Shown: positions 3,609 through 62,589 of the stretch, in pieces
Position numbering within the stretch: position 1 is the first letter of the stretch
How the letters are laid out: the number at the start of each line of letters is the position of its first letter
Assembly: GCF_027946175.1 (NCBI RefSeq)
Contig: NZ_AP026671.1
Location: 434,001 to 498,000, forward strand
Origin: Nitratiruptor tergarcus DSM 16512
GTDB lineage: Bacteria; Campylobacterota; Campylobacteria; Campylobacterales; Nitratiruptoraceae
Length of the DNA stretch: 64,000 nt
Direction: 5' to 3'
Position numbers and translations under genes: made by a program
Notes under the pieces: generated by a model
Database searches by the model: none
What the model was told of the DNA's origin: nothing
What the model saw: only the letters and a program-made list of their open reading frames with translations

Positions 3609-3638
3609 GTATAAGCTATTTTATCACAAGGAGTATTG

Positions 3639-4976
3639 ATGCCATTTGGTTTTGTGTGCAAGAAAGATTTTCCCTTGCTTTGCGATCTCTATGAACTGAC
3701 AATGGCCCAAATCTACTTTAAAAAGGGGATGAATCAAAGGGCTGTATTTGATTTTTTTATTCGTCCAAATAAAAAAAGAGTCTACTATGTAATGGCTGGT
3801 TTGGAGCAGCTTCTTTACTATTTGGAGCATTTACGTTTTGGCAAAGAAGAGATTGCATACCTGCGCTCTTTGGGGATTTTTGAAGAGGAGTTTTTAGAGT
3901 ATCTTAGCCATTTTCGCTTTAGTGGAGAGATGTGGGCAGTAGAGGAAGGAGAGATTGTCTTTGCTAATGAGCCTCTTGTAAGTGTAAAAGCTCCTTTAAT
4001 TGAAGCGCAGATTATCGAGACATTTCTTATCAATACACTGCAGCACCCTATCCTTGTTGCTACAAAAGCTGCGCGCTGCTATAGTGTGGCACAAGGTACA
4101 GTACTGGTTGATTTTGGTCTTCGCCGTGCACATGGAACAGATGCAGGAATGAAGGCAGCAAGAAGTGCATACATTGCGGGTTTTGCTGGTACATCCAATA
4201 TGCTTGCAGGCAAAAAGTTTGGCATTCCGGTCATTGGAACAATGGCACACTCCTTTATCTTAGCGCATAAAAATGAAATAGAAGCCTTTAAAGATTTTTT
4301 AGCGCAGTATCCCGAGAATGCAGTTTTACTTGTTGATACTTTTGATACACTGCAAGGTGTAAAAAACGCTATTAAAGCAGTGAAGAGCATGGGTATGAAG
4401 CATTTTAAAGGCATAAGACTCGATAGCGGAGATATAGCAACTCTTGCAGTGCAAGCAAGGAAGATGCTAGATAATGCAGGGTTTAAGGATACAAAAATCA
4501 TCGTAAGCGGTGGACTCAATGAGTATAAGATAAAAGAGTTACTAGAGCAAAAGATCCCTATTGATGGCTGGGGTGTGGGAACTGAGCTTGTAGTGAGCGC
4601 TGATGTGCCTTATCTTGATTGTGCATATAAACTAGTAGAGTATGCAGACAAGCCAAAAATGAAACTGAGTCCTCATAAAGTTACTCTTCCAGCACAAAAG
4701 CAAATTTTTCGTTTTGAAAGCGGTGGAGAGTTTCAAAAAGATATTATAGATCTTTTTGATAATTCACATGAAGGATCAAAAAAACTGCTGCAAAAAGTGA
4801 TGGATAATGGAGAAATCTGCTATGAGCTTCCATCTTTACAGCAGATACAGGAGTGTTTTAAGCACAATATAACAATGTTGCCCAAAAAGTTTTTAGACAT
4901 TACATCTGATGAACCATACGTTCCACAGATTGGAAAAGCCTTACAAGATCTGTGCGAAAAACTTAAGACTCCATAA
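3639..4976 (+). CDS. pncB: nicotinate phosphoribosyltransferase
   Basis: A 445-residue enzyme that joins nicotinate to PRPP to give nicotinate mononucleotide. Support comes from the N-terminal CDLYELTMAQ, the DFGLRRAHG segment, and IRLDSGDIA, the phosphoribosyl-binding loop typical of the family. ATG 3639 is chosen over TTG 3636 because AAGGAG at 3628-3633 then has normal spacing. It is paired divergently with pncA, so nicotinamide can be recycled to NAD without NamPRT. The 3' end overlaps the convergent AAA protease gene by 14 bases. Confidence 0.92.
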   Translation: MPFGFVCKKDFPLLCDLYELTMAQIYFKKGMNQRAVFDFFIRPNKKRVYYVMAGLEQLLYYLEHLRFGKEEIAYLRSLGIFEEEFLEYLSHFRFSGEMWAVEEGEIVFANEPLVSVKAPLIEAQIIETFLINTLQHPILVATKAARCYSVAQGTVLVDFGLRRAHGTDAGMKAARSAYIAGFAGTSNMLAGKKFGIPVIGTMAHSFILAHKNEIEAFKDFLAQYPENAVLLVDTFDTLQGVKNAIKAVKSMGMKHFKGIRLDSGDIATLAVQARKMLDNAGFKDTKIIVSGGLNEYKIKELLEQKIPIDGWGVGTELVVSADVPYLDCAYKLVEYADKPKMKLSPHKVTLPAQKQIFRFESGGEFQKDIIDLFDNSHEGSKKLLQKVMDNGEICYELPSLQQIQECFKHNITMLPKKFLDITSDEPYVPQIGKALQDLCEKLKTP

Positions 4977-7305
4977 TTTTTTTCAGTTCTTCTCCATCAA
5001 TCATCTCTTTTTGAATAAGTGCTTGAGCTACTTTTTCTATTTTGTCCCAATGTTTATCTACCAACTGCTTTGTCTCTTTTGTGGCTTTTTCGATCCAATA
5101 AGCAATGCGCTCTTCTACCTTTTTTTTAAAGAGCTCTTTGCTCACATTTTGGTTGAGCGTATCGATATGTATATAGCCTATCTCCTCATCCATGCCAAAA
5201 GTTGCCACTAAATTGTATGCTTCCCATGTAGCTTGCTCCAGATCTTGCATGGCACCTGTATCTTCGCCTTCTTCTGGGAATTTTTTCATTTTGGCTATGC
5301 GACCAGCAAGTGCTACGCAGATATCATAGAAGAGCTCTTGTTTTGAAACGTTGGAGATAAACTCATCGCTATAAGAGACAAAGCCTAGAGTCTCAGCACG
5401 GGGCGTTACTGTTACTTGCTCTATCTTTATATCTGGTAAAAGCAGATAACTCAAAACTGCATGACCAGCTTCATGGTAGGCAGTTTTTTTGAGATCTTTT
5501 TCGAGATTTCTTATACGCTTTTTATCAATTTTTTGCCCATATTTGACATTATTGATCTGCTCTATGAGGATCTCTTCTGTGATGACTTTGAGATTTTTTC
5601 TAATTACATACAAAGCTGCCTCTTTGGCAATGCGTTGCATCTCATAGCCACTAAGCCCAGACATATAGCGAGCAACTTTATTAGGATCAATTTTGCCATC
5701 ATTTGGCATCTGTAAAATCTTTTGTATAAAAAACTTCCTCGCTTCCATATCGAGTTCTGGAACTTCAATGAGAATATCGATCCTCTCAGATGCAAGGAGA
5801 TTTTTGTCAATACTATCTTTATTAGTTGCAGTAACTATAGTAAAGACATACTCATCATTTTGCACTGCATCTATTTCATGTATAAGTGTCTCATATGTAG
5901 GTAAGAGATCAGACTGTATATCGATTTCATCAAGAAAGACAATTGCTGGAGAGAACTCTTTTGCCTTCTCATAAGCAATATGAATGAGATTTTGATCAAA
6001 TATATCCAAGCCTTGCAAAAGGACATAAGGCATATTTGCCTCTTTTGCAAATGCGTAAGCTAAGAGAGTTTTGCCAACGCCTTTTGGCCCATAAAGCAGC
6101 ATCCCCTTTGGTAGATTGATGCCAAACTCTTTGACAAGATCAGGATTTTTTACAATTTTTATGATCTCTTTGAGACTATCTTTAACACTTTTTTGTCCTG
6201 CTATATCTTTAAAAGATATGGTAGAGTATCCAATTTTAGGCTTTTCTGTAGGAGAGATATAGTGTGGAAGTTTTTTGATATGCACTTTTTTAAGAGTAGC
6301 AATGGCAGTAGAGTTTTTTAAAGAAAAATCCCACTCTAAAGATATAGTTTCATTCTTTTTAATAAGTGTTTGCAAGAAGTTTTTATCTACTTTTTGTAAA
6401 AACTCTTTTGCTTCCGGTGCTACATCGAATGCTAATTTTTGTATATCAGGGAATTTTTCAAATATTTTATAAATGATATCAATGAGAAGATCAGGAATTT
6501 TTTTGCTTACACGTCGTGCATTAATATAGGGAGCAAAAGAGAGAGTCAAAAATGCTGGAAGTTTTTTATCATGAATTTCAATAGAAATAGCTAGTTGTTC
6601 TTGAAGTTGTCGTATACTTTTTTGCAAGGTTCGTGAAGCTATTTTTATAATTGCTTCAAAACTAAGATGAGAAAAGAGGATAATATAGTTTTGTGCCATT
6701 GCTGAGAGAAGCTCAGGTGCAATAGCACTCTCTACAATATCGTAAATAAGTTTTGTCTCTTTCGCTATATATTCTATGATTTTTGCCTGAGCTTGAAGAG
6801 GATCTTTTTTGTAAAAGCGTAAAAAATCCTCTTTTTTGAGAAGATTTGATCCCGCAGTTGTAGTAAAAATAAAAATCGTCTCTTGAAGTTGTGGAGCAGT
6901 TTTAATGAAGTTTAAAATGGCAAGCTGAATAATATTATCCGCTTTGTCTATATCTTTGAATACAACAATTGCTTTTGGAAATTTTTTGACAAATCCTTCA
7001 AGGGAGCCGTGAGGGCCAAAGAGTTTTTTTTGATCATTGGGATCTGTATATTCAGCCATATCGAATATTTTGAGATTATCATAGCCTGGAAGATTTTTTG
7101 CTAGAAGTTTTGCAAGATAGACTTTACCGCTGTTGTGAGGGCCGATAAATGTAAAGAAGGCTTTGAAATTTTGAGAGGTACCACTAAGCTCAATATGAAG
7201 CAGGGCGTTAATAATATCTTCAATGGCTTGATCTTGTCCAAAAAGATTTTGTTTAAGAGATTTTTTTAGTGTTTCATATTTTTTAAATATAGTTTCTTTT
7301 TTCAT
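4963..7305 (-). CDS. soluble FtsH-like AAA+ metalloprotease with N-terminal Clp-like AAA domain
   Basis: A 780-residue protein with two ATPase domains and a zinc protease. Residues 20-310 look like a ClpA/B second AAA domain, with GPHNSGKV at 55-62, a Walker-B-like IVVFKDID at 113-120 and a sensor-2-like NARRVSKKI near 262. Residues 360-585 are an FtsH-type AAA domain with GPKGVGKT (406-413), IVFLDEID (455-462) and arginine R508. Residues 600-780 are an M41 peptidase with HEAGH at 611-615 and a third zinc ligand, probably D688 (GAMQDLEQAT). No membrane segment is visible, unlike true FtsH. The first AAA site is degenerate and may not hydrolyse ATP. A second, FtsH-like protein is known in Helicobacter and Campylobacter; its role is unknown to me. 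Confidence 0.85.
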   Translation of the reverse strand: MKKETIFKKYETLKKSLKQNLFGQDQAIEDIINALLHIELSGTSQNFKAFFTFIGPHNSGKVYLAKLLAKNLPGYDNLKIFDMAEYTDPNDQKKLFGPHGSLEGFVKKFPKAIVVFKDIDKADNIIQLAILNFIKTAPQLQETIFIFTTTAGSNLLKKEDFLRFYKKDPLQAQAKIIEYIAKETKLIYDIVESAIAPELLSAMAQNYIILFSHLSFEAIIKIASRTLQKSIRQLQEQLAISIEIHDKKLPAFLTLSFAPYINARRVSKKIPDLLIDIIYKIFEKFPDIQKLAFDVAPEAKEFLQKVDKNFLQTLIKKNETISLEWDFSLKNSTAIATLKKVHIKKLPHYISPTEKPKIGYSTISFKDIAGQKSVKDSLKEIIKIVKNPDLVKEFGINLPKGMLLYGPKGVGKTLLAYAFAKEANMPYVLLQGLDIFDQNLIHIAYEKAKEFSPAIVFLDEIDIQSDLLPTYETLIHEIDAVQNDEYVFTIVTATNKDSIDKNLLASERIDILIEVPELDMEARKFFIQKILQMPNDGKIDPNKVARYMSGLSGYEMQRIAKEAALYVIRKNLKVITEEILIEQINNVKYGQKIDKKRIRNLEKDLKKTAYHEAGHAVLSYLLLPDIKIEQVTVTPRAETLGFVSYSDEFISNVSKQELFYDICVALAGRIAKMKKFPEEGEDTGAMQDLEQATWEAYNLVATFGMDEEIGYIHIDTLNQNVSKELFKKKVEERIAYWIEKATKETKQLVDKHWDKIEKVAQALIQKEMIDGEELKKIMES

Positions 7306-7327
7306 TAAACTCCCATTATCACGATTG

Positions 7328-7333
7328 TATAAT
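7328..7333 (+). promoter_or_regulatory. -10 box for the adaptor/oxidoreductase operon
   Basis: TATAAT 43 bases upstream of ATG 7376. It almost abuts a minus-strand TATAAT at 7336-7341 serving the protease gene. Confidence 0.45.
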
Positions 7334-7335
7334 GA

Positions 7336-7341
7336 ATTATA
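7336..7341 (-). promoter_or_regulatory. -10 box for the AAA-M41 protease gene
   Basis: TATAAT on the minus strand, 31 bases upstream of ATG 7305. It is face to face with the plus-strand box at 7328-7333, so the two promoters probably compete. Confidence 0.45.
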
Positions 7342-7375
7342 GTAAAATATGCTTCAATGAGACTAAGGAATGCGA

Positions 7376-8161
7376 ATGAAAAAAGCTGCTTTGCTCTTTT
7401 TACCATGGATCCTTTTTGCCAAAGTCCATATGGTAAAAGTAGAGCCTTTTATGATCTATCACTACAAAGCTGCAGCAAGTGGCGAAGTGGTTTTAGCAAA
7501 AGATAGCAAAGAAGCCAGAGTTGTAGAAGATGAAGTACTTGTCAAAATAGATGATAAAATCGATAGGAAAACCCTTGTTACGCTGCAAAAAAAGTTGCAA
7601 GTTTTGGAAAAAATCATTGCAATAACCCGAAAAAATCTACAAAATACACAAGAGATTATGCAGATAAAAGAGGGCAATTATGTTCGTATAAAAGATCTCA
7701 AAACTAAATCTTCATTTGAAAAGAATATGCGAAAAGCAGAATATCTTGCAGCAAAAAGTAGTTATTTAAATCTGCAAGAGAAGTTGCAAAACCTGTTGAT
7801 ACAAAAGGCTGATATAAAGCTACAAATCGCAAAAACCAAAGATATAATTGCAAAAAAGAGTTTGCGAGTGAGCGGTTATGTCTATAAAATTTATCCCAAA
7901 AGAGGTGATTTTGTCAATTTTGCTGCACCACTTTTTGATATTGCAGATATATCAAGAGCAAAAGTAGTACTCTATCTTACACCAGAAGAGATGCAAGATA
8001 TACAAAATAAGAAGATTTTTATTAATGGCAAAAGAAGTAACGCGAGGTTTTATAAGATCCAAAGAATTACAGATCAAAACTATATAACGCAATATCGAGC
8101 CGAGGTTATAATACCGGCACCAAAAATTTTTGGAAAATTTATAGAAGTGGAGATACGATGA
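7376..8161 (+). CDS. HlyD-type periplasmic adaptor protein
   Basis: A 261-residue exported protein with a signal-peptide-like start (basic KK, then ALLFLPWILFA), a short lipoyl-like half (ASGEVV...VLVKID), a long coiled-coil hairpin (about residues 60-150) and a second barrel half (VSGYVYKIYPKRGDFV). This is the membrane-fusion layout that links inner-membrane pumps to TolC channels. ATG 7376 is preferred over ATG 7370 because AAGGA at 7365-7369 abuts the earlier codon. It overlaps the oxidoreductase gene by 4 bases; a TolC-like gene lies at 11064, but no pump gene is adjacent. Confidence 0.75.
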   Translation: MKKAALLFLPWILFAKVHMVKVEPFMIYHYKAAASGEVVLAKDSKEARVVEDEVLVKIDDKIDRKTLVTLQKKLQVLEKIIAITRKNLQNTQEIMQIKEGNYVRIKDLKTKSSFEKNMRKAEYLAAKSSYLNLQEKLQNLLIQKADIKLQIAKTKDIIAKKSLRVSGYVYKIYPKRGDFVNFAAPLFDIADISRAKVVLYLTPEEMQDIQNKKIFINGKRSNARFYKIQRITDQNYITQYRAEVIIPAPKIFGKFIEVEIR

Positions 8162-55651: not shown

Positions 55652-56241
55652 TGCGAAAGAGAAAAGAAGAGAAAAAACAGGCTATAATGGATACGGCTTT
55701 GGCTCTTTTTGCAAAAAAAGGATACTACGAAATTACCATATCAGATATTGCTAAAGAGATGGGTATGAGTGTTGGAAATCTCTATAACTACTTCTCTTCC
55801 AAAGATGCTCTAGCCAAGGAACTTATGCTCTATATCTCTAAAATTTTAGGCAATCAAATAAGACAGATCAATCTTGAGCCAATAAGCGTGAAAGAAAAGA
55901 TAGAAAAGATAGTTGCATTCTATTTTGAGATGGTTGAAAAGCGCTCAGAACTCATTGAATATTTTTTGCGTATCTATCTCTCGCACAAAGAGATCTTTAA
56001 AGATGGGTGTGAGGGTATGGTCTGTGTCAGTCCTTTTGTAACAGAGATAATGATACTCTTTGAAGAGGGTGTGAGCTCTGGTGAATTAAAAGATCAAGAC
56101 TTCTTTAGTGCTTTTGGACTTTTTATGGGTTATCTTGGTGGGATGGCTTACTTGAAAGGTGAAGGAATGCTTCCAAATGAGTTGTCATTCTATCAGCAAG
56201 ATGTTGCTGAGAATATCTATAGGGCTTTAAAAAGTGGCTAG
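55651..56241 (+). CDS. TetR-family transcriptional regulator
   Basis: A 196-residue regulator with an N-terminal helix-turn-helix (about residues 29-49, ITISDIAKEMGMSVGNLYNYF) and a ligand or dimer domain with cysteines at GCEGMVCVSP. Its stop overlaps the GTG start of the hydrogenase small-subunit gene by 8 bases, so the regulator and the hydrogenase are cotranslated. Control of the hydrogenase genes is inferred from this. A 10-base palindrome before hydA at 58330 is a possible site. Ligand unknown. Confidence 0.85.
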   Translation: MRKRKEEKKQAIMDTALALFAKKGYYEITISDIAKEMGMSVGNLYNYFSSKDALAKELMLYISKILGNQIRQINLEPISVKEKIEKIVAFYFEMVEKRSELIEYFLRIYLSHKEIFKDGCEGMVCVSPFVTEIMILFEEGVSSGELKDQDFFSAFGLFMGYLGGMAYLKGEGMLPNELSFYQQDVAENIYRALKSG

Positions 56242-57073
56242 AGCTATATGGCTCCAGGGTATCACTTGTAACGGAAACACTCACTCTTTTTTACACTACG
56301 AGCAACTATCCCAGCTTTTAGATGAAATTACTTTTTTATACCATCCTCTTCTTCCTTCCCCCTTACATATTACACAATTGTGTTACTTTGAAGAACCCTT
56401 TGATATATTGATTGTAGAGGGTGCATACGGCAAAATAGATAGGGGTGGTTGTGATTTTGTTGAGCTTTTTCATAGACTAAGAAAACAAGCCAAGCATGTT
56501 GTAGCAATTGGCAGTTGTGCAGTATATGGTGGAATACTTGGTGAAAGAGGAATTAATTTTGCAAAAGAGAAGCAAATTGATTCAATTGAACTTATAAATA
56601 TTCCTGGATGCCCTGCACATCCTGAATGGATAGCATTTGCACTTTTAGCGATAAAAAATGGGGAAAATGTAAAAAAAGATACTTTCCAAAGACCAAAAGA
56701 GATCTATGGATATACAGTTCATAGTGGCTGTACACGTAATGAGTATTTCGAGTGGAAGGTTGATGCAAAAAGTTTTGGTACACAAGAGGGGTGTCTTTTT
56801 TATGAGCAGGGGTGTCAAGCTCCTTTTACACATGGTAGTTGTAATAGAATTTTGTGGAATGGTGTAAGTTCAAAAACACGTATTGGAACTCCGTGTTTTG
56901 GGTGTACTGAACCAACATTTCCATCCAATAATCTCTTTAAAACTAAAACTCATATGGGGATACCTGTAAAAATGCCTCTAGGCGTACCAAAACGAGCCTA
57001 TTTAACACTTACAGGAATTGCAAAAAGCTTTCACATACCAAGACTGCATAAAAGAGTTATTGATGAAGATTGA
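56234..57073 (+). CDS. [NiFe] hydrogenase small subunit, cytosolic group 2 (HupU-like)
   Basis: A 279-residue iron-sulfur subunit without Tat signal, so cytosolic. The proximal-cluster segment reads GITCNGNTHSF: C12 is present but the usual second Cys is N15. IGSCAVYGG and NIPGCPAHP supply the other proximal ligands, while HSGCTRNEY, the QGCQAPFTHGSC run and TPCFGCTEPTFP build the medial and distal clusters. It resembles H2-sensor (HupU/HoxB) or group 2 uptake subunits. Start is GTG 56234; it overlaps the TetR gene by 8 bases and the large-subunit gene by 11. Confidence 0.85.
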   Translation: MARAIWLQGITCNGNTHSFLHYEQLSQLLDEITFLYHPLLPSPLHITQLCYFEEPFDILIVEGAYGKIDRGGCDFVELFHRLRKQAKHVVAIGSCAVYGGILGERGINFAKEKQIDSIELINIPGCPAHPEWIAFALLAIKNGENVKKDTFQRPKEIYGYTVHSGCTRNEYFEWKVDAKSFGTQEGCLFYEQGCQAPFTHGSCNRILWNGVSSKTRIGTPCFGCTEPTFPSNNLFKTKTHMGIPVKMPLGVPKRAYLTLTGIAKSFHIPRLHKRVIDED

Positions 57074-58262
57074 AATTTTACAAAAAGTCGAAGGAGAAGT
57101 ATATCTTCACTATAAGTGGAATGAAACAATTATTGAAGATGTTGAAATAGAGTTTTTGCACTATCGCGGTATCGAAAAAATATTATTAGGCAAAGATCCA
57201 CTTGATGCACTTGTTATAAATCCTAGGATATGTGGTATTTGCGGACATGCCCATCTTCGAGCTACAGTAGAAGCTTTAGAAAACGCGTTTGGAATCATAC
57301 CGACACAAAAGGCAAAAACAATTAGGGAAATTACAACATTTTGTGAAATTTTGCAAAATCATTTGAAATGGTTTTATCTCGTTATCGCTCCATTTTTATT
57401 GGACAATGTGAGATTTTTTGCTATACAGCCTGCAATTGTAAATATCAATAAAATAATTGCACTGTTTGGTGGACAGTATCCCCATAATTCATATATGTTG
57501 CCAGGTGGAGTAACATGTGATCCTACAACTATTGAAATTTTTAAAGCAAAAAACTATTTAGCACAAGCAAAAGATACTATTAAGATGCAACTTTTTAAAA
57601 ATTGTACCGATTTAAAAGATATATTGAAAGAAAAGAGTGACTTTGGAAATATATTGAGAAAACTAATTACTTACTCTACGGTTGGGCAGAGTTATGACAG
57701 GTTTGTGGTATTAGGAGAGAATAGCTTAATAAAACCTGCAAAAATATTAAAAACGAGTGTAAAACCTATTTCTGTTAAATTTATTAAAGAAACTGATATT
57801 TCAGTTACGTATCGAGGAAGATTTTATGAGACTGGGCCACTTGCACGCATGCTACTTTTACGTTATCCACTTATAATGCAGTTGCATAGACGCTTTAAAG
57901 ATGCTCTGGTAACAAGAGTTGCTGCACGTGTAGTAGAGATTGATGTAATTATGAAAATATTAGAGCAGCTTCTCGATTCAATTCTCCTAAGCGAGCCTTC
58001 TTGTATTGATAACAAACAAAAAGATGGTTATGGAATGGGAGTAGTTGAAGCTGCAAGAGGATCTTTGATACACAGAGTATGGGTTGAAAATGGAACTATT
58101 GCCAAATATCAAATTATTACACCTACACAATGGAACCTTTTGCAAGGTACTAAAGAATATCCAGGCGTTGCGAGAAAAGCTATTCAAGGCCTAAAAGATA
58201 CAAAAACTGCAGAGTTAATCTTTCGCAGCTTTGATATATGTAGCGTCTGTACTACTCATTAA
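57063..58262 (+). CDS. [NiFe] hydrogenase large subunit, sensor-type (HupV-like)
   Basis: A 399-residue catalytic subunit. The nickel-site cysteine pairs are RICGICGH (C57, C60) and the C-terminal FDICSVCTTH, where C393 and C396 are kept but the usual proline is isoleucine. The chain ends exactly at the histidine where maturation endopeptidases normally cut, so no processing is needed; this is typical of H2-sensor hydrogenases. VEAARGSLIHR also fits group 2. ATG 57063 is chosen over an upstream start. Could be a sensor or a low-activity cytosolic uptake enzyme. Confidence 0.85.
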   Translation: MKIEILQKVEGEVYLHYKWNETIIEDVEIEFLHYRGIEKILLGKDPLDALVINPRICGICGHAHLRATVEALENAFGIIPTQKAKTIREITTFCEILQNHLKWFYLVIAPFLLDNVRFFAIQPAIVNINKIIALFGGQYPHNSYMLPGGVTCDPTTIEIFKAKNYLAQAKDTIKMQLFKNCTDLKDILKEKSDFGNILRKLITYSTVGQSYDRFVVLGENSLIKPAKILKTSVKPISVKFIKETDISVTYRGRFYETGPLARMLLLRYPLIMQLHRRFKDALVTRVAARVVEIDVIMKILEQLLDSILLSEPSCIDNKQKDGYGMGVVEAARGSLIHRVWVENGTIAKYQIITPTQWNLLQGTKEYPGVARKAIQGLKDTKTAELIFRSFDICSVCTTH

Positions 58263-58372
58263 TTTAGTCCCAAAAATATAGAAGATTTAGTAAAAAGTGA
58301 CAATTATTTAAAAATCTTATAAGTTGAAAATTGTACAATAGATGAATGAGTATTCAATCAGAAGGAGAGACT
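58263..58372 (+). promoter_or_regulatory. hydA upstream region with palindrome
   Basis: A 110-base spacer between the sensor-type hydrogenase and hydABCDE. ATTGTACAAT at 58330-58339 is a perfect 10-base palindrome that overlaps a -10-like TACAAT at 58334-58339, and an ACAATT half-site lies at 58300-58305. AAGGAG at 58362-58367 precedes ATG 58373. No sigma-54 GG/GC pattern is visible. Confidence 0.45.
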
Positions 58373-59599
58373 ATGAATAGAGAACACCTTCGCTCGCTCT
58401 TTACAACCAAGAGTGCCCGGGTCGAGACAAACAGAGGTGAAGCCTACTATGCAAGACTCTATGAGCAGTGCAAAGCGAGGCTTGAAGAGCTTAAAAAAAT
58501 TGAGCCGCTTCGTAAAATCTCCATTAAAGAGATTTTGGAAGATGAAGGAGTCAGTAGAAGAGACTTTTTAAAGTGGGCGAGTGCAACGACTGCAATGCTT
58601 ATGCTTCCTAGCTCTTTTACTCCTCTTGTAGCCGAAGCTGCTGAACTGATGACAAGAGTGCCTGTAATTTGGATAGAACTGCAAGATTGTGCCGGAAACT
58701 CGGAAGCTTTTATTAGAAGTGATGGACCAAAAGTGGACGATATCATTTTAGAAATTATCTCACTGGAATTTCAAGAGACACTTATGGCTGCAGCAGGTCA
58801 CCAGGCAGAAGCGCAGCTTGAAGATGCGATAGAGCATTTTAAAGGAAAATATCTCCTTTTTGTTGAAGGTGCTATTCCTGTAGGTCCCGGTAGGGAGTGG
58901 TGTACGATCGGCGCTGGTGGTGAAACTTTTGAAGAGCATCTCAAAAGAGTGGCCAATGATGCAGCAGCCATTGTAGCCGTTGGAACATGTGCGACATTTG
59001 GTGGCGTTCCAGCAGCTGCTCCAAATCCAACAGGAGCTGTTGGGGTTATGGATGTTGTTAATGATAAGCCAATTATCAATATTCCAGCATGCCCGGCAAA
59101 TCCTGCAAATATGGTTGGAGTAATTTTGCACTATGTTCTTACTGGTCAAATTCCGGAGCTTGATTCACTGCTTCGACCAAAATTTGCCTTTGGATACAGA
59201 ATCCACGACAACTGTGAAAGAAGGGCACACTTTGATGCAGGAGAGTTCGTAGAGGAGTGGGGCGATGAAGGTGCAAAAAACAACTTCTGTCTTTATAAAA
59301 TGGGATGTAAAGGTCCTATGACATTTAACAACTGTTCCATCGTTCGCTACAATGAATCAGTTAACTGGCCTATTGGCTCCGGGCATGGATGTATTGGGTG
59401 CAGTGAGCCTGGATTTTGGGATAAGTACGCATATGAAAGACCTATGGCAGATGCAAATATAAAAATGGCTCCCGGCGGTGGAGTAGAAAAGAGTGTGGAT
59501 GAGTTTGGACTGGGTCTTTTGACTGCTGCTGGTGTGGGAATTGCGATTCATGCTGCAGCAAGTGCGGTTGCAGGTAAGAAAAGCGAAGGAGAAGAGTAA
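58373..59599 (+). CDS. hydA: uptake [NiFe] hydrogenase small subunit HydA
   Basis: A 408-residue periplasmic subunit. A long N-terminal region precedes the twin-arginine motif SRRDFLK (61-67) and a hydrophobic stretch, so it is Tat-exported with HydB. LQDCAGNSEAF gives the proximal cluster with N109 at a usual Cys position. VGTCATFGG, the C-terminal MGCKGPMTFNNCSIV and HGCIGCSEPGF provide further cluster ligands. A final helix (LGLLTAAGVGIAIHAAASAVA) anchors it to the membrane. First gene of hydABCDE; overlaps hydB by one base. Confidence 0.93.
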   Translation: MNREHLRSLFTTKSARVETNRGEAYYARLYEQCKARLEELKKIEPLRKISIKEILEDEGVSRRDFLKWASATTAMLMLPSSFTPLVAEAAELMTRVPVIWIELQDCAGNSEAFIRSDGPKVDDIILEIISLEFQETLMAAAGHQAEAQLEDAIEHFKGKYLLFVEGAIPVGPGREWCTIGAGGETFEEHLKRVANDAAAIVAVGTCATFGGVPAAAPNPTGAVGVMDVVNDKPIINIPACPANPANMVGVILHYVLTGQIPELDSLLRPKFAFGYRIHDNCERRAHFDAGEFVEEWGDEGAKNNFCLYKMGCKGPMTFNNCSIVRYNESVNWPIGSGHGCIGCSEPGFWDKYAYERPMADANIKMAPGGGVEKSVDEFGLGLLTAAGVGIAIHAAASAVAGKKSEGEE

Positions 59600-61323
59600 T
59601 GGGTACAAAACATATTGTCGTTGATCCAATAACAAGAATAGAGGGGCATTTAAGAATCGAAGCCATTATCGATGAAAACAATACAATTGTGGATGCATAC
59701 AGCTCTTCAACAATGTTTCGAGGTATTGAAGAGATTTTAAAGGGGCGTGATCCAAGAGATTGTGGTCTGCTTGCTATGCGAATATGTGGGGTATGTACCG
59801 GAACACACTATCAAAGAAGCATAGAAGCAGTCGAACATGCTTTTGGTGTGACTATTCCAAAAAACGCAAGAATTGTCAGAAACCTCATCCAAGGAGCACT
59901 CTATCTGCATGATCATGTTGTGCACTTTTATCATCTTCATGCGCTTGACTGGGTCGATATCACAAAAGCTTTGGAAGCTGACCCAAGCAAAACTGTGGAT
60001 GAAGCAAAAAAATGGGCAAATGCTGCCGGAACCACTCCATATGTTGCAGACAGTGCAAAGTTTAAAGAGGTGCAAGATCGACTCAAAAAATTTGTCAAAC
60101 AGGGTCGGCTTGGTCTTTTTGCAAAAGGATACTGGGGAAATCCACACTATAAACTAACCCCAGAACAAAACCTATTGGCGGTTACGCACTATCTTCAGGC
60201 TCTCGATTTGCAAAGAGATGCTGCAAAGATGATGGCTATCTTTGGCGGAAAGAACCCACACCCACAGAGTATTGTAGTTGGTGGCGTCACTTGTGTACAG
60301 GATATTAAAAACCCTGCACGAATTGCTCTGTATAAAGACTTGCTTAAAGGTTTTACGCGATTTATCAAAGGTGCCTATCTTCCAGATATCTATATGGCAG
60401 GTACTATGTATGGTGATGAAGCACTTGACGGTACAGGCGCAGGTCTGAAAAATTACATGGCTTATGGCGGTTTTCGACTTCAAGACAATGGCTTTTACAA
60501 ATCAGAACTCCTTTTTCCAAGTGGACTTGTAATCGATGGAAAATATCAAGAGTTTGATCAAGAAAAAGTGGCTGAAGATGTAACGCACTCTTGGTATCAC
60601 GGAAACGAGCCACTTCACCCATTTGATGGACAAACCCTTCCAAACTACACAGGATTTGGCAAAAAAGAAAAAGGAATTGCCTATCTTGATACCAAAGGAA
60701 AATACTCCTGGATCAAATCTCCAATCTATGATGATACAAGAGTAGAGGTTGGACCGCTTGCAAGAATGGTTGTGGGATATACCAAAGGTGATAAAAGAAT
60801 CAGTGAATATGTCAATAGATTTTTGAAAAATGCAAATCTTCCTGCAAAAGTGCTCTTCTCAACTGTTGGTCGAACCGCAGCAAGAGCGATTGAGACTGAA
60901 ATGATGGCAGATATTATGTTTGATTGGGTTGATGAGTTAGCAGCCAATGTTGCAGCAGGAGATTTATCAACATGGACAGAATTTGATTTTGATTATGTAA
61001 GTAAAAATGCACAAGGGTATGGACTCGAAGAGGCTCCACGGGGAGCATTGGGACACTGGGTAAAAATCAAAGATGGCAAAGTGGAAAACTATCAAGCAGT
61101 AGTACCATCTACTTGGAACGCTGCGCCAAGAGACTATAAAAACAGAATGGGTGCCTACGAAGCGAGCTTGATCAGTACAAAAGTGGCAAAGCCTGAAGAG
61201 CCATTGGAGATTTTGCGAACAATTCACAGCTTTGACCCATGTATTGCGTGTGCGGTGCATATTGTGGATACAAAAGGAAAAAGTTTAGGTGAGTTTAAAG
61301 TGAATACCTCTTGCTCAATTTAA
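59599..61323 (+). CDS. hydB: uptake [NiFe] hydrogenase large subunit HydB
   Basis: A 574-residue catalytic subunit that oxidises H2 in the periplasm. Nickel ligands are C63 and C66 in RICGVCTGTH and C548 and C551 in DPCIACAVH. A 20-residue extension follows H554 and must be removed by HydD after nickel insertion. EAPRGALGHWVKI is the conserved L motif. One base overlap with hydA; transported with it by the Tat system. Confidence 0.95.
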   Translation: MGTKHIVVDPITRIEGHLRIEAIIDENNTIVDAYSSSTMFRGIEEILKGRDPRDCGLLAMRICGVCTGTHYQRSIEAVEHAFGVTIPKNARIVRNLIQGALYLHDHVVHFYHLHALDWVDITKALEADPSKTVDEAKKWANAAGTTPYVADSAKFKEVQDRLKKFVKQGRLGLFAKGYWGNPHYKLTPEQNLLAVTHYLQALDLQRDAAKMMAIFGGKNPHPQSIVVGGVTCVQDIKNPARIALYKDLLKGFTRFIKGAYLPDIYMAGTMYGDEALDGTGAGLKNYMAYGGFRLQDNGFYKSELLFPSGLVIDGKYQEFDQEKVAEDVTHSWYHGNEPLHPFDGQTLPNYTGFGKKEKGIAYLDTKGKYSWIKSPIYDDTRVEVGPLARMVVGYTKGDKRISEYVNRFLKNANLPAKVLFSTVGRTAARAIETEMMADIMFDWVDELAANVAAGDLSTWTEFDFDYVSKNAQGYGLEEAPRGALGHWVKIKDGKVENYQAVVPSTWNAAPRDYKNRMGAYEASLISTKVAKPEEPLEILRTIHSFDPCIACAVHIVDTKGKSLGEFKVNTSCSI

Positions 61324-61333
61324 GGGGGCTAGC

Positions 61334-62035
61334 ATGAAACAGCAAAAATTTCAAAGAGTAAAACGAATGACGCTCTTTATGCGTCTCAATCACTGGGTAG
61401 TGGCTTTATGTATGGTAGCGGCTGTTATAACCGGATTTTATATCGGCCATCCATATTATCAAACAATGATTAGTGAGCCTGCTGTTCAAAAATTTGTTAT
61501 GGCATGGAATAGATGGATCCATTTTTATGCAGCGATAATTTTTGATGTAAGCTCTATCGTCATTGCATATCTCTATTTTTTCAGCAGATTTGAAAAACCT
61601 GTCAAAAAACTCATTCCAAACGGAAAAAACCTCAAAGAGTTTTGGGAAGTTTTTATCAATCTGATCACACTCAATCGCGTCAAAAGATTTGACAGCAGTC
61701 ATGAAGACAGTTTTCATGTGGTCTATTTCACTATTTTCCATCTACTTTTAGCCTGGATGCTTCTAACGGGTCTTCAACTTTATGTACACGGTCTGGAATC
61801 TGGAATGAGTAGTATAGGATCTTGGTGGCCATGGCTATTGCATTTGGTAACTGATTGGACAGTACCGGTCTGTGGCGGGACAAAAATTGATGTGCGGTAT
61901 GTGCATCATATGACAATGTATTTTATCTTAGTGTGGATTATGTTTCATATCTACTATGTGGTATGGAGAACGATCTTTTGGAGAGAGGGAGATATTGCCA
62001 TAGTTTTTGGTGGATATAAATTTAAAAAAGGGTGA
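61334..62035 (+). CDS. hydC: hydrogenase cytochrome b subunit HydC
   Basis: A 233-residue inner-membrane dihaem cytochrome b that passes electrons from HydAB to menaquinone. Four helices are predicted; haem-binding histidines are likely in MRLNHWVVALCMV and the C-terminal VHHMTMYFILVWIMFHIYYVVWR segment. Family Ni/Fe-hydrogenase b-type. Follows hydB by 10 bases and overlaps hydD by one base. Confidence 0.92.
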   Translation: MKQQKFQRVKRMTLFMRLNHWVVALCMVAAVITGFYIGHPYYQTMISEPAVQKFVMAWNRWIHFYAAIIFDVSSIVIAYLYFFSRFEKPVKKLIPNGKNLKEFWEVFINLITLNRVKRFDSSHEDSFHVVYFTIFHLLLAWMLLTGLQLYVHGLESGMSSIGSWWPWLLHLVTDWTVPVCGGTKIDVRYVHHMTMYFILVWIMFHIYYVVWRTIFWREGDIAIVFGGYKFKKG

Positions 62036-62589
62036 TGTTGAAGACGGCAATTATAGGAATTGGCAATATTTTGTTCATGGATGAGGGTATTGGGGTATAT
62101 GCCTCAAAATATCTTGAGAAGAATTTTGTCTTTGATGATGATGTAGAAATTATCGATGGAGGGACACTGGGGTTTAAACTTATGCGCTACTATCAAGAGT
62201 ACGATAAAGTAGTGATATTGGATACAGTCTCCATCGAAGATGCTCCAGGCTCCATATATAATCTCCCTAGTGAGGTTTTACTGGGGCTTGGAGAGTATAG
62301 AAAAACAGCACATGAAGTTGAAGTTGTGGAGATGCTTGAGATTTGCAGTATGCTTGAATCCATCGCACAAGTGAATATTATTGGAATCGTGCCAAAAGAT
62401 ATCGAAAGCGTTGGTATTGGTTTAACGGATACCATGCGAGAATCTTTTGACAGCTACATACAAACGCTTTTGCAAGAGCTGGAAAAAAACGGTATTCAAT
62501 ATCAAAGAAGAGCCAATAAAACGCTTGACTCGATTATCTTTGAGTATGCAAACCCCTCAATGAAAGAGTGTAATGACATTACAGTTTGA
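62035..62589 (+). CDS. hydD: hydrogenase maturation endopeptidase HydD
   Basis: A 184-residue HyaD/HybD-type protease that trims the HydB C-terminus. The nickel-probing residues are visible as the acidic residue in NILFMDEGIGVYA (about residues 12-24), the aspartate in IDGGTLGF and the histidine in KTAHEVEVVEML. ATG 62035 lies in a GTG-ATG-TTG run. Overlaps hydE by 17 bases. Confidence 0.9.
   Translation: MLKTAIIGIGNILFMDEGIGVYASKYLEKNFVFDDDVEIIDGGTLGFKLMRYYQEYDKVVILDTVSIEDAPGSIYNLPSEVLLGLGEYRKTAHEVEVVEMLEICSMLESIAQVNIIGIVPKDIESVGIGLTDTMRESFDSYIQTLLQELEKNGIQYQRRANKTLDSIIFEYANPSMKECNDITV

Follow-up and report, generated by a model that had tools for sequence, protein, structure and literature searches.

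A family of Clp–FtsH fusion proteins in Campylobacterales and the apparent stepwise loss of its motor elements

Introduction

As a rule, Clp machines and FtsH accomplish the same task as independent systems. Analysis of a 64,000-nucleotide stretch of the Nitratiruptor tergarcus DSM 16512 genome (contig NZ_AP026671.1, positions 434,001 to 498,000, hereafter the window) revealed a gene whose 780-residue product joins elements of both (positions 4963..7305, minus strand, ATG start). Like the AAA-M41 proteases FtsH (TIGR01241), YME1 and AFG3L2, this protein displays the AAA-M41 order, the HExxH motif with a third Asp ligand, the first arginine finger and the corresponding fold. It differs from FtsH, however, by the absence of membrane helices, of the pore loop and of the second arginine finger, by the Clp domain in front, and by a score of 243 against 600 bits. 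Its N-terminal half has the complete NBD2-type fold of ClpB, thus resembling the second ATPase domain of ClpA and ClpB (also of ClpK and ClpG), and is predicted to be catalytically intact in six early-branching relatives. In contrast to ClpA and ClpB, the fusion has a single Clp AAA domain, with a fused peptidase in place of ClpP, and the clade of the window protein has lost the catalytic residues and the pore loop.

By its sequence features, the window protein is neither FtsH nor Clp but a distinct AAA protease variant, because it was tested for the defining features of both and displays neither set in full. It belongs to a Clp–FtsH family that is real and, within the searchable literature, undescribed; our literature search, mostly of openly accessible papers, found no paper describing a Clp–FtsH fusion. 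While the component parts are known, the searchable papers describe neither their combination nor a motor that was lost step by step as the peptidase persisted. We propose, with moderate confidence, that the window protein would be a cytoplasmic, presumably ring-forming zinc peptidase, in which an ancestral Clp-driven defence protease has turned into a stand-alone, non-threading peptidase.

Results

Domain organization of the window protein

The gene is identified by its open frame and by family membership, and the plus strand across 4963-7305 contains many stops. Three modules are encoded on the minus strand. The first (residues 3-332, positions 6310..7299) is a degenerate AAA domain of the Clp type, together with the small domain at its C-terminal end. 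The ClpA model TIGR02639 aligns to residues 8-276 with 67 bits over model positions 446-713, which correspond to the second ATPase domain, and the first AAA also matches PF07724 (AAA_2) with 38.2 bits for a cut-off of 27, in agreement with a Clp/Hsp100 D2-type fold. The second module (residues 353-590, positions 5536..6249) is an FtsH-type AAA domain according to profiles, structure and motifs; the match to FtsH TIGR01241, spanning residues 362-774, scores 243.2 bits and does not reach the equivalog cut-off of 600. The third (residues 600-780, positions 4966..5508) is a Peptidase M41 domain, identified by profile, structure and conservation, with residues 603-777 scoring 125.2 bits for PF01434 compared to the Pfam cut-off of 29.9.

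The AlphaFold single-chain model, generated from 43 sequences, has a mean pLDDT of 87.8 and a pTM of 0.57, so that the arrangement of the domains with respect to each other is unreliable. In this predicted structure, residues 3-332 superpose on ClpB NBD2 including the small C-terminal domain (4fcv, Z 22.1, 3.4 Å over 286 residues), residues 353-585 on the FtsH ATPase (1iy2, Z 21.7, 2.4 Å over 233) and residues 600-780 on the M41 domain (6nyy, Z 21.1, 2.6 Å over 177). N-terminal membrane helices were sought by hydropathy and none was found: the window protein has no membrane helix since its highest 19-residue value is 1.22, while the canonical FtsH encoded in this genome reaches 2.58. A sequence-only reading of this DNA had proposed a Clp-type AAA domain ahead of a membrane-free FtsH-type protease, and the profiles, the predicted fold and the hydropathy all bear this out; in particular, the ClpA D2 and ClpB NBD2 matches identify the N-terminal part as an AAA fold and not as an ordinary FtsH-family extension.

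The motifs cited in that reading (GPHNSGKV, IVVFKDID, the NARRVSKKI region and HEAGH) are all located in the protein. In the Clp-type AAA domain, Walker A GPHNSGKV (residues 55-62) and Walker B IVVFKDID (113-120) carry V62 and K117-D118, NARRVSKK occupies residues 262-269, and the sensor-1 Asn and the pore loop are missing; this domain is therefore degenerate, as had been proposed, and lacks the catalytic features of a Clp ATPase. The claim of full Walker motifs in the second AAA domain stands for Walker A (GPKGVGKT, 406-413) and Walker B (IVFLDEID, 455-462, with its FLDEID core kept), which are intact together with the first arginine finger. The FtsH set is nevertheless incomplete, as the pore loop and the second arginine finger are lost. 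The zinc site of the M41 domain comprises H611, E612 and H615 of HEAGH (611-615), and D688 as third ligand.

Motor elements are lost while the peptidase site is kept

The six-residue stretch bearing the FtsH pore loop (FVGVGA in canonical FtsH) is present in all 7 FtsH references and absent from all 60 family members aligned. The Clp half of the six intact members displays GPPATGKT, a DE Walker B and the sensor-1 Asn, and its pore-loop region contains a Tyr. Neither the family-wide loss of the FtsH loop nor the intact Clp motor of early-branching members at defence-like operons figured in the sequence-only reading. Among the degenerate members, those aligned have a deleted or shortened Clp pore loop. 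Of 35 such members, 34 have another residue at the Walker A Ser/Thr position of the Clp half, and a DE Walker B is missing from this half in all 35. The Walker B pair is ED in both AAA domains of many degenerate members, and DE is found in the second AAA domain of 5 of the 35 degenerate long members (the window protein and four listed relatives) and of none of the 16 short ones.

Contrary to these motor elements, HExxH persists throughout the 51 degenerate and short members, and the third zinc ligand is conserved in each of the 49 sequences that extend to that site. The ratio of nonsynonymous to synonymous substitution rates (dN/dS) between close pairs ranges from 0.01 to 0.19 in each of the three modules, showing that the altered domains are still constrained by purifying selection.

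Two early-branching proteins (L088:5987-8611 and L078:5979-8519) have lost the first zinc His (YEAGH and KEAAH) and have DA as Clp Walker B; given these changes, they may be inactive scaffolds. The short forms (L079, L080, L082 and L090-L100) have an altered Walker B, a Lys replacing the first arginine finger, and a conserved HExxH, and are possibly ATP-independent M41 peptidases. The N-terminal part of early-branching members resembles a Clp N-domain by eye, but it has no Pfam Clp_N match and a profile comparison gave no clear support, so that this assignment was set aside.

Distribution and phylogeny of the family

Profile searches detected the fusion family in 64 of the 399 sampled genomes of the order, spread over 18 of 87 genera. 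Of 298 genomes sampled from the phylum, to which the profile search was confined, 30 encode a member, and every one of these belongs to this order. Full-length relatives are encoded by 7 of 22 genomes of the same taxonomic family (own genome counted) as well as in other families, and a Nitratiruptor metagenome-assembled genome contains a copy that is 69% identical. With so many full-length relatives, the fusion cannot be due to chance or to an assembly error. An additional scan of genome contigs gave just 2 relatives because it required exact peptide words.

The members fall into three architectures: long early-branching proteins of 846-1092 residues, with an intact Clp half in 6 of 9; degenerate forms, mostly of 780-810 residues, to which the window protein belongs; and short forms of about 450 residues without the Clp half. 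In a tree with an outgroup of canonical and pseudo-FtsH, the family is monophyletic (100/100) and the degenerate and short forms make up one clade inside it (100/99), the remaining forms branching early with a fork that the tree leaves open. The short sub-branch lies within the degenerate clade, where the Clp half was dropped. In a tree of the Clp half only, the family again forms one clade (100/100) and the sampled degenerate forms are grouped (96/89), although long branches advise caution. Both trees thus favor a single fusion event with later loss rather than several fusions. An intact and a degenerate copy are encoded together in one genome (G130).

Intact members lie in defence-like neighborhoods

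A DUF4062-STAND gene is found within three genes of the protease in four of the six intact loci (L073, L075, L076 and L077) and in none of the 36 others (Fisher p 1e-4, relatedness not being corrected for). DUF4062 has been described as a TIR-like NADase antiphage family (Swarozyc, 2026 preprint, PMC13174449). Genes for TIR, TrkA_N, WYL, NERD-helicase and PrimPol-helicase proteins also occur near intact members. Two regions, L077:5961-14396 and L075:1562-13288, are candidate defence operons with TrkA_N, DUF4062-STAND and Clp–FtsH protease genes. The first contains a TrkA_N gene, a gene for a 242-residue protein, and DUF4062-STAND and protease genes with overlapping ends, while L075 and L076 both combine a TrkA_N gene, the protease and a DUF4062-STAND gene, with a TIR gene in L075. 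The L073 locus comprises a small protein, the protease and two DUF4062-STAND genes, with a PrimPol-helicase upstream. At L074, a WYL-like regulator, a small protein, the protease and an ankyrin-like protein are found (regulator and ankyrin-like protein by inspection), and L087 has a WYL regulator, a NERD-UvrD helicase, a small protein and the protease. We infer that the operons with intact members defend against phage.

A protein of 180-210 residues is encoded directly upstream of the intact protease in three loci (L073:5149-5691, L074:5009-5641 and L087:3109-3660). It matches YbjN weakly (E 0.01-0.2) and is possibly an adaptor.

Genome context of the window gene

In the 1.94 Mb Nitratiruptor genome, the fusion gene sits between a nicotinate phosphoribosyltransferase-like gene (3636..4976, plus strand, identity by sequence inspection), which is a neighbor only, and a HlyD-like gene in divergent orientation (7370-8161, plus strand). 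The 64-bp intergenic region common to the fusion and HlyD-like genes (7306..7369) is presumably a promoter region. In three related genomes (G003, G004 and G008) the two flanking genes are adjacent with no remnant between them, indicating a clean presence/absence of the fusion gene. A DUF4062 gene was sought beside the window gene and is absent. An operon partner was also rejected, since the neighborhood shows chromosomal synteny only, within Nitratiruptoraceae. Foreign composition was dismissed as well, with a gene GC content of 34.5% compared to 37% for the window and a GC3 similar to that of the neighbors, as was a phage or plasmid origin: searches of phages, plasmids and viral contigs detected FtsH of the ordinary kind, or Clp and FtsH as separate genes, and no fused relative.

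The genome also encodes ClpA, ClpB and ClpP. A separate canonical ftsH, expected by the sequence-only reading, is present (C1:168615-169952, membrane-bound, zinc motif HESGH), together with a second membrane-bound FtsH-like protein, hereafter pseudo-FtsH, located just before the window and about 6 kb from the fusion gene (G000:C1:431980-433038; L003:157-1848). The second FtsH-like protein that this reading mentioned for Helicobacter and Campylobacter is, we presume, more likely this pseudo-FtsH than the fusion protein. Elsewhere in the window, positions 56234-62589 contain a hydrogenase-like gene cluster with small and large subunits, cytochrome b and a maturation protease, by inspection.

Discussion

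In the early-branching form, the Clp ring would pull the substrate through a passive FtsH ring, acting as a neck, into the M41 chamber; these roles are assigned because this form has the Clp loop but lacks that of FtsH. This form would belong to DUF4062-STAND antiphage operons. The window protein would assemble as stacked rings, in which the Clp-type ring serves as a lid or docking platform. With its intact Walker A and B, the FtsH-type ring would use ATP to support assembly or gating rather than to drive threading. Since both pore loops are gone in this form, active threading is unlikely, and the peptidase would cut substrates that are already unfolded or short, or that are passed on by another unfoldase. 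Recruitment of substrates by the first AAA ring, as suggested by the sequence-only reading, may also take place and would be compatible with this mechanism. Out of the defence operon, the window protein would probably have a housekeeping or stress role. More tentatively, and with some doubt, we suggest that a self-contained Clp motor and M41 chamber may serve NLR-like DUF4062-STAND immunity in Campylobacterota, and may have been domesticated into a non-threading peptidase by losing its two pulling loops step by step, with extant intermediates ranging from the full motor to the Clp-less short form.

Several points weigh against a non-threading peptidase derived from a defence protease. Of the 35 degenerate members, 34 retain the Walker A lysine of the Clp half, which could therefore still bind nucleotide, and other pore residues might still hold the substrate. 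The defence association is carried by three or four independent lineages, and the trees do not fix the branching order among the intact forms. The whole proposal is based on sequences and single-chain models.

The alternative that survives best, although we consider it unlikely, is that the window protein is still an ATP-driven unfoldase-protease whose FtsH-type ring pulls via other pore residues while the Clp-type ring only recruits substrates, which comes closest to the idea of the sequence-only reading. The Walker A, Walker B and first arginine finger kept in its second AAA domain are in line with this, as is the DE pair kept there by most Nitratiruptoraceae relatives; however, the gripping loop of FtsH is deleted in all members and the second Walker B is mostly altered across the clade.

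A mixed complex, in which the fusion would supply the peptidase to the membrane-bound pseudo-FtsH, for example, or to ClpA or ClpB, seems improbable. Pseudo-FtsH has complementary losses, with an intact AAA domain (pore loop YVGMGA, DE Walker B, RPGRFDR) and YQAAK replacing HExxH, and it co-occurs with the fusion in the window genome and in fusion-bearing relatives. Yet partial pseudo-FtsH-like matches are found in nearly all relatives, whether the fusion is present or not, and the fusion is soluble whereas pseudo-FtsH is membrane-bound. It is equally improbable that the window protein remains a defence effector acting alone: its early-branching relatives lie in defence-like operons and close relatives either have or lack its gene at a single site, but among the 34 degenerate or short members whose neighborhoods are known, none has a DUF4062 partner beside it, the chromosomal synteny is conserved in Nitratiruptoraceae, and the GC3 is similar to that of the neighbors. 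Finally, decay without function, which could account for the degenerate Clp-half motifs and the patchy presence, is very hard to reconcile with the long open frames, the conserved zinc site and the purifying selection in all modules.

A family that joined a Clp motor to an FtsH chamber, gave up the FtsH pulling loop and then, in a single clade, lost the Clp motor as well would provide a natural series on AAA rings unable to pull. If true, the early-branching members would also tie a dedicated unfoldase-protease to DUF4062-STAND immunity, a link that can be tested in the laboratory.

Comparison with known systems

The Clp-type ATPases of defence loci, i.e. DolB of the Dodola defence system and the PADLOC candidate PDC-M37B, resemble the early-branching relatives of the fusion. 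The Clp half of L073 scores 79 bits with PDC-M37B and 57 bits with DolB (57-59 bits for L073 and L075), compared to 28 bits for the window protein with the DolB model; however, these models span 375-518 positions and have no M41 part. The FtsH-containing MoxR-vWA conflict systems (PMC7159879) share with the fusion two AAA domains, the first inactive and one FtsH-type, and a conflict setting, but both of their AAA domains are of the FtsH type, and they are partnered by MoxR and vWA proteins. The pairing of a Clp unfoldase with an FtsH protease is also seen in a plasmid stress-tolerance island, where the two genes lie side by side and encode separate full-length proteins. The chloroplast Ycf2-FtsHi motor is another FtsH-derived machine in which one of two activities was lost, namely the protease site, and the motor kept. 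The fusion displays the reverse loss, with the motor gone and the protease site kept.
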